From NCBI GenBank assembly GCA_002171615.1, contig NHEF01000014.1:142974-206973 (forward strand): a stretch of 64,000 bases of DNA, in the 5' to 3' direction. Shown piece after piece: positions 1,265-37,005 of this stretch. This DNA comes from Gammaproteobacteria bacterium TMED78 (GTDB lineage: Bacteria; Pseudomonadota; Gammaproteobacteria; Steroidobacterales; Rariloculaceae). The position numbers and the translations under genes are program-made. Each line of letters starts with the position of its first letter. The first letter of the stretch is position 1. The notes under the pieces were generated by a model that was not told where the DNA came from, ran no database searches, and saw nothing but the letters and a program-made list of their open reading frames with translations.

Positions 1265-2464
1265 TTACCACCTATATAGATCAGCACTATAGCCTTTTTT
1301 AAATATCTTAGGTTCTTTTTTTAGTTCAGCAAAACCATCTGTATTTGCCAAAGAAATAAAGTCTCCTGAAGTATTAGTAGTAACCGGACTTCCTTTTATT
1401 ACACCATTTTTATCTATATTAGTTATTACTGGAACAAAATAAGTTAAATTTGGAGAAAAAACTACATTCTTTTTTAGAACTATTTTTTCAGGATGGAAAG
1501 GTTTAGTGCTAAGGGCATAATTTAAAGCAGGTATAATAAATCTATTCATGCAGACCATAGTTGATACTGGATTACCTGGAAGGGCAAATATTGGTTTAGA
1601 TTCTTTACTCATTCCAAACCACATTGGTCTTCCTGGGCGTTGGCTAATTCCATGAAAAACTAGATTTACTTTTAATTCTTTTAATATTCCAGGGACAAAA
1701 TCGTATCTTCCCATAGATACCCCTCCTGTGAGAATTATCATGTCATGGGTGCTATGTAACTTTATGATTTTCTCTAAAATTTTTTTACGCTTATCTTTAA
1801 TGATGTATCTTGAGACCTTACCAATTCTTCTAGCTGAAATACTTGCTTCTATTGCTCTATCATTAGCAGATCGTATTTGGAAAGAATTAGTTTTATCAGC
1901 TACTTCTACTAATTCATCGCCATTTGAAATAATTGCTATTTTTGGAATTTTTGCAACTGATAACTTGTTGTATCCTGCACTAGCTAGAATTGCTATTTCT
2001 GGTGATTTTAGAAAAATTCCTTTCTCTAGAACTTTTTTTCCTGACCTTATGTCCGATCCCTTTTTATGCGTGAACTGCCCTTTACGTAGAGATATATTAC
2101 CTAATATTTCTAATCTATTACCATTTCTTTGTGTCCTCTCAATAGGCACAACAGTATCTGCATTATCCGGTAAAACTGCACCAGTCATTACTTCAATCGA
2201 CTCTCCTGCATTTTTCAACTTTAAGGCTTTTCTTCCTGCTGGCTGACTTCCTTTAATCTCAAAAGATTTTAAACCTCTTTTCCAGTCGTTATAAGATATT
2301 GCAAATCCATCCATAGTTACCCTATCGTAAGGAGGATAATCTCTATCGATAAAGATATCTTCTCTTAGAGCTAATCCAATTGCACTATTTAGGCTTACCT
2401 TTTCGGCGGCTAAAAATTCAATATTTTCTAGAATTAATCTTTCTGCTTTAGCTACACTGATCAT
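1265..2464 (-). CDS. moeA: molybdopterin molybdenumtransferase MoeA
   Basis: MoeA inserts molybdate into adenylylated molybdopterin, the last general step of molybdenum cofactor synthesis. The 399-residue protein has the full-length family layout: MoeA N-terminal region with PPYDRVTMDGFAI (about 44-56) and GAVLPDNADTVVPIE (about 95-109), the MoCF-binding domain with TGGVSMGRYD (246-255), QRPGRP (about 275-280) and ALPGNP (294-299), and a C-terminal barrel. It converges on the xdhC-like gene with five bases between the stops. Its ATG at 2464 is divergent from the bactofilin gene. All expected motifs are present, so it is probably functional. Confidence 0.95.
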   Translation of the reverse strand: MISVAKAERLILENIEFLAAEKVSLNSAIGLALREDIFIDRDYPPYDRVTMDGFAISYNDWKRGLKSFEIKGSQPAGRKALKLKNAGESIEVMTGAVLPDNADTVVPIERTQRNGNRLEILGNISLRKGQFTHKKGSDIRSGKKVLEKGIFLKSPEIAILASAGYNKLSVAKIPKIAIISNGDELVEVADKTNSFQIRSANDRAIEASISARRIGKVSRYIIKDKRKKILEKIIKLHSTHDMIILTGGVSMGRYDFVPGILKELKVNLVFHGISQRPGRPMWFGMSKESKPIFALPGNPVSTMVCMNRFIIPALNYALSTKPFHPEKIVLKKNVVFSPNLTYFVPVITNIDKNGVIKGSPVTTNTSGDFISLANTDGFAELKKEPKIFKKGYSADLYRW

Positions 2465-5440: not shown

Positions 5441-7120
5441 ATGGATAAAAAACTTAAAAGAGGGACAAATTTTATACATCAAATTGTTTCAGTTGATGTA
5501 GATAAAAACTTGAATGATGGAAAAGTGCAAACTCGCTTTCCTCCTGAGCCAAATGGTTACTTACATATTGGTCATGCTAAAGCTCTGAGCTTATCTTTTG
5601 ATATTGCTTCTGAGTTTGAGGGCAGTTGTTTCCTTCGTTTTGACGATACCAATCCTGAGAAAGAGGAAGAAAAGTATATAGATGCCATTAAGGAAGACGT
5701 TCTTTGGCTTGGCTACTCTTGGGATAAGCTTACTTATACATCGGATTATTTTTCTAGATTGTATGATTTTGCTAAGCAGTTAATTTTAGACAATAAGGCT
5801 TATGTTGATAGCTTAAGCGCAGATAAGATTAAAGAATATCGAGGTACTTTAACCCTACCTGGTAAAGATAGTCCTTATAAGAATCGTTCTATAGAGGAAA
5901 ATGCCAATCTCTTTGAAGGTATGGCTAATGGTATTTTCGAAGAAGGGGAGCATGTGTTAAGAGCAAAAATTGATATGTCTTCAGCAAATATTAATCTTAG
6001 GGATCCCATCTTGTACCGAATAAAAAAGATTTCTCATCAAAGAACTAATCAAGATTGGTGTATATATCCAATGTATGATTTTGCACATACATTTTCAGAT
6101 TTGATTGAGGGTATTTCACACTCGTTATGCAGTTTAGAGTTTGAAGATCATAAACCTTTATATGAATGGTTTTTAGATCAAATTCCTATTAAAAATCGCC
6201 CTAAGCAAATTGAGTTCTCTAGACTAAATTTAATGTATACAGTTATGAGTAAAAGAAAACTGAAGACCTTAGTTGATTCTGGGCAAGTCAATGGTTGGGA
6301 TGATCCAAGGATGCCCACAATATCTGGAATGAGAAGGCGAGGCTATACGCCTAATTCAATTAGAGATTTTATATATAGGATAGGTGTTACTAAGAAAGAT
6401 AATACTATACAGCTAAGTAGCCTAGAAAATTGTGTTAGAGAGGATCTAGATGCTAAAAGTGAGAGACGGTTTGCTATATTAAGACCATTAAAGATTACTT
6501 TAGAGAACTATTCTGAAGATAAAGAAGAAGTACTTTTAGCACCTAATCATCCTAGCGATGAATCCCTCGGGACGAGAGAGATTATTTTCTCTAGGGAGAT
6601 ATATATTGAAGAGGATGACTTTATGGAGAATCCCCATAGCAAATTTTTTAGATTATCAATTAATTCAGAAGTAAGACTAAAGTATGGTTATATTATTAAG
6701 TGCAATAAAGTTATAAAAAATGAAAAGGGTAAGATTATTGAATTAGTTTGTTCCTATGATCCTGATACTAAAAGTGGATCAAGTGGCTCAAAGAGGAAGG
6801 TTAAAGGCACAATACACTGGATTTCATCAAAACATGCTATAAAAGCAGAAGTAGATTTATATGATAGATTGTTCAAAGAGCCTTTTCCTGAGGTAAATAA
6901 CTCTAATCTTTCTCAGTGTATTAATCCTGACTCTCTTGAAGTAATTAATAATGCTTTTCTGGAGCCATCGCTCGCTAGCGCAAAACCAGATCAGACCTTT
7001 CAGTTTGAGCGTTTAGGATTTTTTAAAATTGATATTAATAACAATAAAGAGAAGTTAGTTTTTTTAAGAATATTAAGTCTTAGGGACACTTGGTCCAAGA
7101 TTGAGAAGCAATCGCTATAA
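5441..7120 (+). CDS. glnS: glutaminyl-tRNA synthetase
   Basis: GlnRS charges tRNA-Gln with glutamine. The 559-residue length matches bacterial GlnRS (about 550). Class I signatures are present: PPEPNGYLHIGHAKA with HIGH at 42-45, FDDTNPEKE at 67-75, and the KMSKR-equivalent VMSKRKL near residue 267. The Asp-Asp-Thr-Asn-Pro stretch and the C-terminal double beta-barrel region (from about 340) separate GlnRS from GluRS. It stands alone between the TRAP binding protein and moaA. The start at 5441 has no clear Shine-Dalgarno sequence, but it gives the expected N-terminus. Confidence 0.96.
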   Translation: MDKKLKRGTNFIHQIVSVDVDKNLNDGKVQTRFPPEPNGYLHIGHAKALSLSFDIASEFEGSCFLRFDDTNPEKEEEKYIDAIKEDVLWLGYSWDKLTYTSDYFSRLYDFAKQLILDNKAYVDSLSADKIKEYRGTLTLPGKDSPYKNRSIEENANLFEGMANGIFEEGEHVLRAKIDMSSANINLRDPILYRIKKISHQRTNQDWCIYPMYDFAHTFSDLIEGISHSLCSLEFEDHKPLYEWFLDQIPIKNRPKQIEFSRLNLMYTVMSKRKLKTLVDSGQVNGWDDPRMPTISGMRRRGYTPNSIRDFIYRIGVTKKDNTIQLSSLENCVREDLDAKSERRFAILRPLKITLENYSEDKEEVLLAPNHPSDESLGTREIIFSREIYIEEDDFMENPHSKFFRLSINSEVRLKYGYIIKCNKVIKNEKGKIIELVCSYDPDTKSGSSGSKRKVKGTIHWISSKHAIKAEVDLYDRLFKEPFPEVNNSNLSQCINPDSLEVINNAFLEPSLASAKPDQTFQFERLGFFKIDINNNKEKLVFLRILSLRDTWSKIEKQSL

Positions 7121-7188
7121 GTTTATGTAGAAAAATTTTTATAGATATATAATATAATTTTCAGAATACATTCAGATGATTAATTTTT

Positions 7189-8235
7189 ATGAAAAATAAT
7201 ATTTCTAGTTTCAGCAAAATAGGTCAGATAACTGATAAATTCTCCAGACCACTTAGAGATCTTAGGATATCAGTAATTGATCGCTGTAATTTTAGATGTC
7301 CATACTGTATGCCATCTGATAAGTATGGTAAAAATCATCAGTTTATGCCAAAGAAAGATTGGCTATCAGCTGGAGAAATAAAGAGAATTGCTCAATTGTT
7401 TATGCAGTTGGGAGTCGAAAAGGTAAGATTAACTGGTGGTGAACCTCTCTTGAGGAAAGATATTTTAGATATTGTTTCTAATCTAAGCTCTCTACCAAAT
7501 CTAAATGATCTTGCTTTAACTACAAATGGCTCTTTTTTGGCAGATAAGGCTAAAGATCTCAAGGCTTTAGGTTTGGATAGAATAACTATTAGTTTAGATT
7601 CAATTGATAAAGGTATTTTTAGAGAGATGTCTGGAGGGAAGGGCAATCTAGATAATGTATTGAATGGGATTGAAGTTGCAAGAAAAGTTGGTTTAGGTCC
7701 AATTAAGTTGAATGTAGTTATCCAAAAAGAAGTAAATGATAGCTCAGTGCTTGATTTGCTAGATTATTTTAGAGGCACTGGTGTCATAGTAAGATTTATA
7801 GAGTTTATGGACGTTGGAACTCTAAATAATTGGAAGCTTGACCATGTAGTCTCATCAGCTGATTTATTAGAGATTATTTCTAGAAAGTGGAAGCTTGTTC
7901 CAGTAAAAAAGAATTATTTTGGTGAAGTAGCCCGAAGATATTCTTATCAGGATGGCCAAGGAGAGATTGGATTCATATCTTCTGTTTCAAAGCCTTTTTG
8001 TGGGGATTGTAATCGAGCGAGAATATCAGCAGATGGCACAATTTATACATGTTTATTTGCCTCAAAAGGTATGAATATAAGAAATTTTATGAGAAGCGGC
8101 TCAACTGATAATGATTTAATGAATATTCTCCAAAAGCAATGGAGAGAGAGAGTTGATAGATATAGCGAGCTTAGAAAAGATGTTGTAAAAAAGAAAAAAT
8201 TATCACGTATTGAAATGTATACAATGGGTGGTTAG
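7189..8235 (+). CDS. moaA: GTP 3',8-cyclase MoaA (radical SAM)
   Basis: MoaA catalyses the radical-SAM rearrangement of GTP to 3',8-cyclo-H2GTP, the first step of molybdenum cofactor synthesis. The 348-residue protein has the N-terminal radical-SAM cluster motif CNFRCPYC (Cys33, 37, 40), the SAM-binding LTGGEPLLR, and a C-terminal second-cluster motif with CGDCNRARIS and a later TCLF near residues 270-290. It ends in the conserved Gly-Gly needed for activity. Its stop overlaps the moaC GTG by one base, so moaA-C-D-E form one tight operon. No molybdenum-cofactor riboswitch is visible in the 68 bases upstream. Confidence 0.96.
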   Translation: MKNNISSFSKIGQITDKFSRPLRDLRISVIDRCNFRCPYCMPSDKYGKNHQFMPKKDWLSAGEIKRIAQLFMQLGVEKVRLTGGEPLLRKDILDIVSNLSSLPNLNDLALTTNGSFLADKAKDLKALGLDRITISLDSIDKGIFREMSGGKGNLDNVLNGIEVARKVGLGPIKLNVVIQKEVNDSSVLDLLDYFRGTGVIVRFIEFMDVGTLNNWKLDHVVSSADLLEIISRKWKLVPVKKNYFGEVARRYSYQDGQGEIGFISSVSKPFCGDCNRARISADGTIYTCLFASKGMNIRNFMRSGSTDNDLMNILQKQWRERVDRYSELRKDVVKKKKLSRIEMYTMGG

Positions 8236-32834: not shown

Positions 32835-33557
32835 ATGAAATCTATTCGGATCATCTTAGTAGAAACGTCCCATCCTGGTAATGTAGGTGCTTCTGCTAGG
32901 GCCATGAAAACTATGGAGCAAGAAGAGCTTTATTTAGTTAATCCAAAGAATTTTCCATCTTCAGAAGCAATTGCAATGGCTTCTGGCGCTGATGATGTTT
33001 TACAAAATGCAGTTATTACCTCGACTCTTGAAGATGCTTTAACTGGTTGTAATTATGTTATAGGTGCTACCTCTAGAAGTAGAAGCCTTGGCTGGCCAAC
33101 ATTAGAGCCTCGTGAGTGCGTGGAGATGATTTCTAAAAAAATAGCCTCAAGCAAAGTAGCAGTTATTTTTGGACCAGAACATTCTGGTTTAAATAATGAG
33201 GATCTATCTCGTTGTAATTCAGTAATTAATATACCTTCTAATAAGTTATTTTCTTCTCTAAATCTAGCAATGGCTGTCCAGATAATCTGTTATGAATTAA
33301 AAATATATGTTGATAGAAAGAATACACCAAAAGGTATAGATTCTAGCAACCTTGCAACTTCAGAAGAACTAGAGGGGTTCCATAAGCATTTAGAAGGCCT
33401 ATTAGAGCACTCAGGATTTATGAAAAAGGAAAGATCAAAGCAGTTAAAATTAAGACTCAGGCGTTTATTTAATAGAGTGATACTTAAGAAACAGGAGATA
33501 AATATTTTACGTGGTATATTGGTGTCTTTAGATGCAAGAAATAAGTTAAAAAAATGA
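32835..33557 (+). CDS. trmJ: tRNA (cytidine/uridine-2'-O-)-methyltransferase TrmJ
   Basis: TrmJ methylates the 2'-OH at position 32 of several tRNAs. The 240-residue protein has the SPOUT N-terminal motif ETSHPGNVGASARAMKTM (about 10-27), YVIGATSRSR, the SAM-knot region VIFGPEHSGLNNEDLSRC (about 110-127) and IPSNKLFSSLNLAMAVQI, followed by a C-terminal helical extension typical of TrmJ. Its stop overlaps the iscS start by four bases. Confidence 0.94.
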   Translation: MKSIRIILVETSHPGNVGASARAMKTMEQEELYLVNPKNFPSSEAIAMASGADDVLQNAVITSTLEDALTGCNYVIGATSRSRSLGWPTLEPRECVEMISKKIASSKVAVIFGPEHSGLNNEDLSRCNSVINIPSNKLFSSLNLAMAVQIICYELKIYVDRKNTPKGIDSSNLATSEELEGFHKHLEGLLEHSGFMKKERSKQLKLRLRRLFNRVILKKQEINILRGILVSLDARNKLKK

Positions 33558-34705
33558 AAGAAGTTTATTTAGACTATGCAGCAACAACACCAGTGGATCC
33601 AAGAGTTGCTGATGTAATGAATGCCTGCTTAAGATTAGATGGTAATTTTGCTAATCCTTCATCTTCTCACCAATATGGTAAAGAGGCACATGCTATTATC
33701 GAGAAAGCTAGAAAAGAAGTTGCTAGAAAAATCATTAGTGACCCTAATAGAATTTATTTTACATCAGGTGCAACTGAGTCAAATAATATTGCAATTAAGG
33801 GGATAGTTAAAAAAGGAGATCATATAATCACTTCATTAACAGAGCACAAAGCTGTTTTGGATACAGTAAATTTTCTAGAAAAAAATGGTATTGATGTAAC
33901 TTATTTGAAGTGTGATTCGAAAGGGATTATAGACCCTTTAGAGGTTAAAAAGCATATAAAAAATAGTACTCGTCTTGTTTCAATTATGCATGTAAATAAT
34001 GAAATAGGGGTGGAGCAAGATATAAGAGAAATTGCGAAGTATTGTAACGAAAGTGAGGTTTTATTTCATGTAGATGCAGCACAATCAGCAGGTAAAGTTT
34101 TATTGAACCTTAAAGATTGGAATATTGATCTAGCATCAATAACCGCTCATAAGTGCTATGGACCTAAAGGTATCGGGGCAATATACGTGAAGGAAGGAAT
34201 TAGGGTTAATGGTTTATTTCACGGAGGTGACCAGGAGCATGGTTTGAGACCAGGTACTTTGCCTACTCATCAAATAGCCGGGATGGGTAAGGCTTATGAG
34301 CTTCTGAATGTAAAAGAAGAGTCTAAGAGGCTCAAAAAAATTAAAAATAAGTTATGGGAAGGCCTTAATAAGATTTCGGAAATAAGGCTAAATGGAGACC
34401 TTGAAAAAAGCTCCCCTCATGTTCTAAATATTACCTTCTTAGGAGTTGAGGGAGAGAGCCTTCGTTTAGCAATTTCTGATATTGCTATCTCAGCCGGATC
34501 TGCTTGTAATTCTGAATCAACTGAATCTTCTCATGTTTTAAGCATTTTAGGACTTAGCGAAACATTAGCGAATAGCTCTATTCGTTTTAGTTTTGGGAGA
34601 TTTACTAAATTTAGTGAAATTGATTATGTTATTGAAAGGATAAAGTTTGAAGTTAATAGACTAAGGAGTATTATGGGAAAAACTCCTAAATGGTGTCGGA
34701 GCTGA
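33554..34705 (+). CDS. iscS: cysteine desulfurase (IscS/NifS family)
   Basis: This PLP enzyme removes sulfur from cysteine for Fe-S clusters and tRNA thiolation. The 383-residue protein has the YLDYAATTPVDPRV start, HVDAAQSAGK (about 175-184), the PLP lysine in TAHKCYGPKGIGA (about 198-210) and the active-site cysteine loop SAGSACNSESTESSHVL (about 313-329). Length is about 20 residues shorter than enteric IscS. It is followed by an IscU-like gene and iscA, but iscR, hscA, hscB and fdx are not present here. Confidence 0.93.
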   Translation: MKEVYLDYAATTPVDPRVADVMNACLRLDGNFANPSSSHQYGKEAHAIIEKARKEVARKIISDPNRIYFTSGATESNNIAIKGIVKKGDHIITSLTEHKAVLDTVNFLEKNGIDVTYLKCDSKGIIDPLEVKKHIKNSTRLVSIMHVNNEIGVEQDIREIAKYCNESEVLFHVDAAQSAGKVLLNLKDWNIDLASITAHKCYGPKGIGAIYVKEGIRVNGLFHGGDQEHGLRPGTLPTHQIAGMGKAYELLNVKEESKRLKKIKNKLWEGLNKISEIRLNGDLEKSSPHVLNITFLGVEGESLRLAISDIAISAGSACNSESTESSHVLSILGLSETLANSSIRFSFGRFTKFSEIDYVIERIKFEVNRLRSIMGKTPKWCRS

Positions 34706-34730: not shown

Positions 34731-35105
34731 ATGATTTATAGTAGAGAAGTAATAAATGGATTCAAATTACTAGAGAAGGCGCCTAGCATATCTGATAAAA
34801 ATGAGTTTTTCTTTGAGGCAGAATCTGAGGATCGTTCGTTAGGCGTATGGGTTAAATGCCAAATGTTAATTGAAAAAGAAATAATTAAAGAAGTAAATTT
34901 TTTTATATTTGGGTGCCCAGATACTTTAGTAAGTGCTAATAAAATTAAATCAATTATTCAAAATCAGGCTATACATGATGTAAAATACATAGATATGCTT
35001 GGTATAAGAAAAAATTTGAATATTCCTGTAGAAAAAATGGGTAAAATATTAGTTATTGAAAATGCTTTTCAAGAGTGTTTGAAAGTATTTTTTTTAAAAA
35101 GATAA
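34731..35105 (+). CDS. degenerate IscU-like (NifU N-terminal fold) protein
   Basis: The 124-residue protein follows iscS by 25 bases and aligns along its length with IscU by eye: MIYSREVING matches the IscU start, and IIKEVNFFIFGCPDTLVSANKI matches the segment holding IscU's second cluster cysteine (Cys62 here). The first ligand (PACGD region) is replaced by SLGVW around residue 37, and the third (KIHC region) by EKMGK around 101-105. The HscA-binding LPPVK motif is IPVEK. Only one of three cysteine ligands remains, so scaffold activity as in IscU is doubtful. A regulatory or IscS-binding role is possible. The frame is intact, so it is not simply decayed. Confidence 0.7.
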   Translation: MIYSREVINGFKLLEKAPSISDKNEFFFEAESEDRSLGVWVKCQMLIEKEIIKEVNFFIFGCPDTLVSANKIKSIIQNQAIHDVKYIDMLGIRKNLNIPVEKMGKILVIENAFQECLKVFFLKR

Positions 35106-35117
35106 TTTAGGAAAACT

Positions 35118-35441
35118 ATGGCTATTTCTTTAACTACTGATGCGGCTAAAAGAGTAAAGTCCTATATTGAGAGAAGAGGACAGGGCCTAGGTTTGCGTTT
35201 AGGCGTAAGAAAAACAGGCTGTTCTGGTTTTGCCTACTTGATTGACTATGCAGATAAAATTAATTCAGATGATGTCATTTTTAAGGATCGCGGGATAAGT
35301 ATTTTTATTGATAAAGATGCTTTAAAAATGATAGATGGAACTGAAATAGATTTTGTGAAACATGGTATAAACGAAGCGTTTAAATTTCGTAATCCTAATA
35401 TAAAGGGAGAGTGCGGTTGCGGAGAAAGCTTTAATATTTAA
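35118..35441 (+). CDS. iscA: A-type iron-sulfur carrier protein (IscA family)
   Basis: A-type carriers hand Fe-S clusters or iron to target proteins. The 107-residue protein has GLRLGVRKTGCSGFAYL with the first conserved cysteine (about residue 35) and the C-terminal GECGCGESF with the other two (about 99 and 101). IscA, ErpA and SufA are hard to separate by eye; the place after iscS favours IscA. Shine-Dalgarno-like AGGAAAA precedes the ATG. Confidence 0.92.
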   Translation: MAISLTTDAAKRVKSYIERRGQGLGLRLGVRKTGCSGFAYLIDYADKINSDDVIFKDRGISIFIDKDALKMIDGTEIDFVKHGINEAFKFRNPNIKGECGCGESFNI

Positions 35442-35464: not shown

Positions 35465-35893
35465 ATGCAGGAATCTACTTTATCAATTATTAAACCAGAT
35501 GGTGTTGAAAAAAACCTTATTGGGCAAATATATAAAAGATTTGAAGATAGTGGTTTAAGAATATTAGCAGCAAGAATGATACACTTAACTAAGGAAGATG
35601 CAGAAGGTTTTTATGGAATACATTCAGGTAAGCCTTTTTTCTCGGATTTAGTAAGTTATATGACTTCTGGCCCAGTAATGGTTCAGGTTCTTTTTGGAGA
35701 AGATGCAATAAGTAAAAATCGAGAAATTATGGGAGCCACTAATCCTAAAGATGCAGAGAAAGGGACTATAAGAAGTGATTTTGCAGAGTCTATAGAAAGA
35801 AATATTGTACATGGCTCGGATGGACCTGAGACAGCAAACTCAGAAATAAGTTTTTTCTTTAAAAGAGAAGAAATTTGTCTTCCGACTATCTAA
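35465..35893 (+). CDS. ndk: nucleoside diphosphate kinase
   Basis: Ndk balances nucleoside triphosphates by transferring phosphate through a histidine. The 142-residue protein has [18 protein letters not shown] at the start, [18 protein letters not shown] (about 89-106) and the active-site histidine in ERNIVHGSD (about 111-119). Its last 19 bases overlap the rlmN start. Confidence 0.97.
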
Positions 35894-37005
35894 AAAAAAT
35901 ATACTACTCTTCTAAAGATAAGATTAATCTTATTGGCTTAGATTATGAGCAGCTGGTAGATTCCCTTTCTTTTTTTGGAGAAAAGAAATATAGAGCTAAT
36001 CAGATTATGTCTTGGCTGTATCAGAAAAACGTTTACGATATTGATTGCATGAGCAATATAAGTCTTTCTTTTAGACAGAAGCTTAAAGAATTTTTTTTTA
36101 TTAACCTTCCTTTAGTCAAGTCTATGATGAAATCTAAAGATGGGACTATTAAATGGATTATCGATGTTGGTTCTAAGCAATCTATAGAGTCAGTGTTTAT
36201 TCCGGAACTAGATAGAGGAACGCTTTGTGTTTCTTCCCAGGCAGGTTGTGCACTGGATTGCGCCTTCTGTAGCACTGGAAGTCAAGGCTTTAATAGAAAT
36301 CTAAAATCAAGTGAGATTCTTGGCCAGGTTTTGCTTGCTAAGAGCTTAATTGGTAAAGAGAAAAAAATAACTAATATTGTTTTCATGGGCATGGGGGAGC
36401 CATTAGCAAATTATAAAAATATTTTACCAGTAACAAAATTACTAGTAGATGATAGAGCTTTTGGACTTTCAAGAAGAAAAGTAACAATAAGTACTTCTGG
36501 TATTGTTCCTCAGATTAAAAAATTATCTAAAGATTGTAATGTAGCATTAGCTGTTTCACTCCATTCTGCAAATAATAGCGTAAGAGATAAAATAGTTCCT
36601 ATAAATAAAATTCATCCTATTGAGGAGCTTTTAGAAGCTTGTTGGCTTTATGCAGATTCTACAACCTCAAGACAGATTACCTTTGAGTATGTAATGTTAG
36701 ATGGAGTAAATGACTCAAAAAAGGAAGCCAAATCTCTTGTTAAGCTTTTGCAAAATAGACCTGCTAAGATAAATCTTATACCATTCAATAGTTTTCCTGG
36801 CACAAGATTTAGGTGTTCAGAAAAAAAAGTTATAAATCAGTTCTATAGTGAACTCAGATCAGCTGGCATAATTGCAACAATAAGAAAAACTAGGGGAGAT
36901 GATATAGATGCTGCTTGTGGACAACTATCAGGGGAGGTTAATGATCTTATTAGTAGAAGACTCAGTAATAGGCCTTTTCGACAAGATAGATACTCTAGTA
37001 GATAA
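35875..37005 (+). CDS. rlmN: 23S rRNA/tRNA adenine-C2 methyltransferase RlmN (radical SAM)
   Basis: RlmN methylates A2503 of 23S rRNA and A37 of some tRNAs. The 376-residue protein has the N-terminal helical domain ([33 protein letters not shown]), the radical-SAM cluster CALDCAFC (about 121-128), [11 protein letters not shown], and the mechanistic second cysteine in [10 protein letters not shown] (about 350). It starts at a TTG inside the ndk end; AGAGAAG lies just upstream. Gene order ndk-rlmN is common in gammaproteobacteria; the usual pilF is absent before rodZ. Confidence 0.94.

Follow-up and report, generated by a model that had tools for sequence, protein, structure and literature searches.

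We identified a family of IscU-derived proteins, here called IscU*, in which the ligands of the iron-sulfur cluster scaffold are gone. Its members have probably been kept as dedicated partners of the cysteine desulfurase IscS after cluster assembly switched from ISC to SUF, in most lineages taking persulfide on a single remaining cysteine, Cys62. The representative described here is encoded in a 64,000-nucleotide stretch of Rariloculaceae DNA (the window). We found no published description of the family or of IscS-IscU* fusions in a search of literature available without subscription.

An IscU-derived protein encoded between iscS and iscA

Few proteins in living organisms are conserved as strongly as IscU, and its three cysteines are regarded as diagnostic. 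In the window, an intact reading frame with iscS on one side and iscA on the other lies in an unbroken run of genes, trmJ-iscS-IscU*-iscA-ndk-rlmN-rodZ (37022)-hisS (37947), which, judged by the gene order of E. coli, we take to be the ancestral gammaproteobacterial isc position:

32835..33557, + strand: trmJ-type SpoU tRNA methyltransferase gene, overlapping the start of iscS; in the relative L120 it is fused to IscS-IscU*
33554..34705, + strand: iscS, cysteine desulfurase; catalytic SAGSAC loop present, C-terminal tail missing
34731..35105, + strand: IscU*, IscU-derived, scaffold ligands gone; 124 aa, with Cys62 as its lone IscU-type cysteine in the motif G-C-P
35118..35441, + strand: iscA, A-type carrier; 152.9 bits against NF007049 (below the cut-off of 181), above the TIGR00049 subfamily cut-off
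35465..35893, + strand: ndk, conserved next gene downstream; marker of the ancestral isc position
35875..37005, + strand: rlmN-like radical SAM gene, a conserved downstream neighbour

The Pfam family NifU_N covers IscU* residues 3–121 above its cut-off (E 2.9e-7), but the score against the IscU equivalog TIGR01999 (35.1 bits) falls far below the cut-off of 192.4. An AlphaFold2 model with 50 homologues in the input was predicted with high confidence (pLDDT 91.7, pTM 0.84). The closest solved structures are IscU/ISCU chains (TM 0.80–0.89), many of them from complexes with Nfs1 or IscS, and SufU structures rank behind them (TM ~0.7). Compared with IscU (E. coli IscU, human ISCU), the protein shares the fold, the length, the position next to iscS and the residues Tyr3, Gly38, Cys63 and Lys103, but differs in C37->L, D39->V, H105-C106->G-K and LPPVK->IPVEK, and has a proline instead of a glycine after Cys63. 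Cys63 of E. coli, which corresponds to Cys62 in the window, is thus the sole survivor of the three ligand cysteines. IscU* matched neither the SufU equivalog TIGR01994 nor the SufE family PF02657. In the window's own family, a near-invariant cysteine also lies close to the C-terminus of IscU* (Cys116 in the window).

A preliminary description of the locus had reported a full-length, in-frame IscU relative in the iscS-iscU-iscA slot, with its first and third ligand cysteines and its LPPVK motif changed; the intact frame, the NifU_N match, the IscU fold and the alignment with IscU all agree with it, and structure prediction places the protein nearer to IscU than to SufU. It had also noted that iscR, hscBA and fdx are absent. 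We likewise found no iscR, hscB, hscA, fdx or iscX at the isc locus of the window, and HscA is missing from the genome as well. The description further suggested that the protein might bind IscS and accept persulfide on Cys62, or act as a regulator; these putative functions gain indirect support from the natural fusions to IscS, the preserved contact residues and the purifying selection described below, and are weakened by the loss of Cys62 in three lineages. The spread of the family over an entire order and the parallel degeneration of IscS go beyond what it had noted.

Distribution and conservation of the family

For comparison, we used 97 relatives from the same order, 68 of them of good quality, and a sample of 369 genomes from the class. 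A profile built from 50 family members matched 94 of the 97 relatives and all 68 good-quality genomes; the isc-locus count is 93 of 97, as the match in G064, which sits in the suf operon of that genome, was left out. The relatives that lack IscU* are incomplete MAGs. The relatives include Ca. Rariloculus versatilis, probably from the same family as the window, as well as Steroidobacteraceae and Woeseiaceae MAGs, and the order trmJ-iscS-IscU*-(iscA)-ndk-rlmN is found in every locus with sufficient flank. Outside the order, IscU* is present in five families of the class sample (L037/L045, L038, L040, L041 and L061). A search with a narrower homologue alignment returned 30 named loci. Members of f15 (L098, L100 and L101) lack iscA between IscU* and ndk, so IscU* does not need an adjacent iscA.

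Sequence comparisons between 88 homologues and 24 true IscU proteins of the class revealed that Cys37 is present in none of the former and in all of the latter, Cys106 in 3 versus 24, and Cys63 in 77 versus 24. A proline directly follows Cys63 in 86 of the 88 homologues, a position occupied by glycine in all true IscU proteins, and no second Cys, His or Asp is conserved at the ligand positions of the 88. The same losses thus recur across families of the order, and a local sequencing error as their cause can be ruled out. The three homologues that retain Cys106 (L109, L133 and L125, from f7 and f16) were identified by inspection and, from their sequences, look like intermediates.

The tree is compatible with a single origin of IscU*, with few columns and long branches leaving its root undecided. 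IscU* branches are long relative to those of IscU, indicating fast evolution. The domain is under purifying selection: dN/dS (NG86) between close pairs ranges from 0.10 to 0.64, with values of 0.10, 0.33 and 0.37 for pairs that lack Cys62.

Three further IscU-type genes were noted. L043 (G365, family f20; ~1477-1905, minus strand) encodes a degenerate IscU that has lost Cys37 and Cys63 (GNVP) and kept Cys106; it groups beside true IscU, which points to an independent loss in another gammaproteobacterial family. True IscU matches in G084 and G078 were set aside. The former (L132, G084:C28:86000-98000) is a complete three-cysteine IscU at 6921-7292 on an apparent phage contig in the bin of a relative, judged by eye from ribonucleotide reductase-like, exonuclease-like and GIY-YIG-like ORFs. 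The latter (L131, G078:C115) comes from a relative in which IscU* is present too; its contig is short, and the gene represents either contamination or gain.

Cluster assembly by SUF

The window genome (1.57 Mb in 28 contigs, 98.8% complete) carries a complete operon of sufR-like, sufB, sufC, sufD, sufS, sufU and sufT genes on another contig (C6), as confirmed by NCBIfam equivalogs. The encoded SufU scores above the TIGR01994 cut-off, keeps its three cysteines and lies beside SufS. It is the only NifU_N protein of the genome besides IscU*, which rules out a second true IscU. The earlier suggestion that cluster assembly may depend on Suf elsewhere in the genome is therefore well founded, and of the two things to be searched for, a second true IscU and a Suf operon, only the latter exists. 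SufB is present in all 68 good-quality relatives. HscA was not found above the cut-off in any of the 97 relatives, the window genome included; the near matches have the size of DnaK or MreB. SufE occurs in 37 of the 97 relatives, is absent from the window's family and was not found in the window genome.

Changes in IscS and IscS-IscU* fusions

IscS has changed together with its neighbour. In all 26 IscS proteins encoded beside a true IscU, the segment after the catalytic cysteine is 77 residues long and closes with SPLWEMYK...W..H, whereas 46 of the 49 unfused IscS proteins beside IscU* have only 58–70 residues there and lack this tail; a hand count gave 66 for the window IscS. In E. coli IscS, deletion of residues 376–404 abolishes IscU binding (PMC2854127). 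With the docking tail gone, free IscU* would bind IscS by another contact, if at all, and its binding is not assured. Many IscS proteins of the window's family (34670-34705 in the window; L065-L072) end in [AT]PxWC, and thus possibly have an extra C-terminal cysteine.

The IscS-contacting positions known from the complex of the E. coli proteins (PMC2854127) are better preserved in IscU* than the protein as a whole (41% identical and 59% similar, versus 24% and 38% overall). These better-preserved positions are Y3, F/Y11, G38, K/R42, Y/F61, G62 and K103, most clearly Y3, the aromatic residue at 11, G38, G62 and K103, and the ligands except C63 are gone. At the level of sequence, this pattern fits a protein that has lost its scaffold and HscA-related functions and would have retained its IscS-facing surface.

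In several lineages, the two proteins are joined. IscS and IscU* form a single frame in L026, L080, L094, L095, L121, L037 and seven f12 genomes, and L120:120-2516 (G030) encodes TrmJ, IscS and IscU* in one frame of 799 codons. As GC-rich relatives contain long frames, a fusion was counted only if IscS and IscU* share the frame. The fusions fall into at least three groups of the tree, with IscU* at the C-terminus of IscS, in the place of the lost tail. An AlphaFold2 model of the L095 fusion (pLDDT 95.0, pTM 0.91), in which the IscU* domain makes up 110 of 494 residues, has a pTM above that expected for loose placement, a weak hint that the domain has a defined position on IscS in this protein.

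The remaining cysteine and sulfur relay

According to work cited in PMC2854127, Cys63 of E. coli IscU can form a disulfide with Cys328 of IscS. The equivalent Cys62 of IscU* is gone in three lineages: f12 (fused; GPP/GPS), f14 (free; G-N/S-P) and L041 (GDP). Because dN/dS remains below 1 despite this loss, the domain has a cysteine-independent role at least in these lineages.

Among the 97 relatives, 17 have TusA and four have TusE, and the window genome has neither; by comparison, the class sample has TusA in 291 of its 369 genomes. MnmA scores above the cut-off in 91 of the 97 relatives. With TusA and TusE mostly missing and MnmA near-universal, IscS must feed MnmA without the relay used in E. 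coli, a gap that IscU* could fill. Simple substitution of TusA by IscU* is unproven, however. Families f12 and f14 have neither Cys62 nor TusA, which means that thiolation can do without a Cys62 relay in these two lineages. Beyond the order, genomes with IscU* do have TusA, which makes its absence an order-level trait. Given both observations, co-occurrence cannot decide the matter.

A proposed role for IscU* and its alternatives

In the explanation that we consider probable, the isc operon was pared down to iscS-IscU*-iscA once cluster assembly had passed to SUF (SufBCDS with SufU), and IscU* would have stopped building clusters and remained as a dedicated IscS partner. In most lineages, it would accept persulfide from IscS on Cys62 and, in this form, activate IscS or direct it toward sulfur users other than Fe-S clusters, the likeliest being tRNA 2-thiolation by MnmA because the Tus proteins are absent. 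In lineages that later lost Cys62, a docking or regulatory role alone would remain. An extended form of this proposal, that IscU became an IscS sulfur-transfer subunit throughout the order, replacing the Tus relay, while the interface was jointly rebuilt by tail loss and then repeated fusion, is possible but doubtful.

A different emphasis would make IscU* a purely structural or allosteric subunit that keeps the tail-less IscS stable or adjusts the activity of the enzyme, with the chemistry of Cys62 inessential. The purifying selection on domains of three lineages without Cys62 and the fusion of IscU* to IscS where the tail was lost are consistent with this, and there is a precedent in the degenerate A-type domain of NfuA, which is missing a ligand cysteine and is needed for targeting (PMC8593673). 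Among the 88 diverse sequences, the 77 outside these lineages nevertheless have an invariant Cys62 despite a low mean similarity, which is hard to explain without chemistry, and we regard a purely structural role as unlikely. Considerably less probable is that IscU* has remained a scaffold or carrier of clusters by an unusual route, for example as a Cys62-bridged dimer that also uses other ligands or IscA. Such a role would account for the retained gene order with iscA in most lineages and for the Cys106 of the three f7 and f16 homologues, but it is difficult to reconcile with the lack of a second conserved Cys, His or Asp ligand, the loss of D39 and H105, the absence of HscA, the presence of Suf with SufU and the f15 loci without iscA.

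That IscU* is a decaying, functionless relic of iscU, as its fast evolution and long branches might indicate, is highly improbable given that every good-quality genome of the order has an intact gene, and that the family has acquired new conserved residues such as the proline after Cys62, shows dN/dS below 1 and was fused repeatedly. It is scarcely credible, finally, that IscU* belongs to the SUF pathway as a SufU or SufE that has diverged. The related fold of SufU and the single cysteine, as in SufE, are outweighed by the genome's own SufU beside SufS, the missing SufE match, the position of IscU* next to IscS rather than SufS and a fold closer to IscU.

Comparison with known systems

The probable role of IscU* as a persulfide-accepting IscS partner resembles those of several known proteins. 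SufU has the IscU fold and, like IscU* in its proposed role, accepts sulfur from a cysteine desulfurase without serving as a scaffold, but it has three cysteines forming a Zn site and partners with SufS. The core fold of SufE and CsdE is IscU-like. They share the single-cysteine logic of transpersulfuration, whereas IscU* has no PF02657 match, lies on the side of IscS rather than SufS and clearly descends from IscU. TusA takes persulfide from IscS for tRNA thiolation, which would be the function left vacant here, but has an unrelated fold, a different binding place on IscS and no sequence match to IscU*. The NfuA domain is also a former Fe-S domain with dead ligands that is kept for interaction, although in another family and pathway. 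As in the window genome, Mycobacterium tuberculosis makes clusters by SUF and has kept iscS, which stands alone in its truncated ISC operon; there, iscU is gone, while here it has been kept in altered form.

Taken together, IscU* shows the fate of an ISC system once SUF takes over. Across tens of genera, a NifU_N match alone would mislabel the protein as an IscU/NifU scaffold, and such a match is insufficient to infer ISC. Natural single-cysteine and cysteine-free IscU domains could help to study IscS binding apart from persulfide transfer and from cluster assembly, and the supply of tRNA thiolation by IscS without TusA becomes testable.
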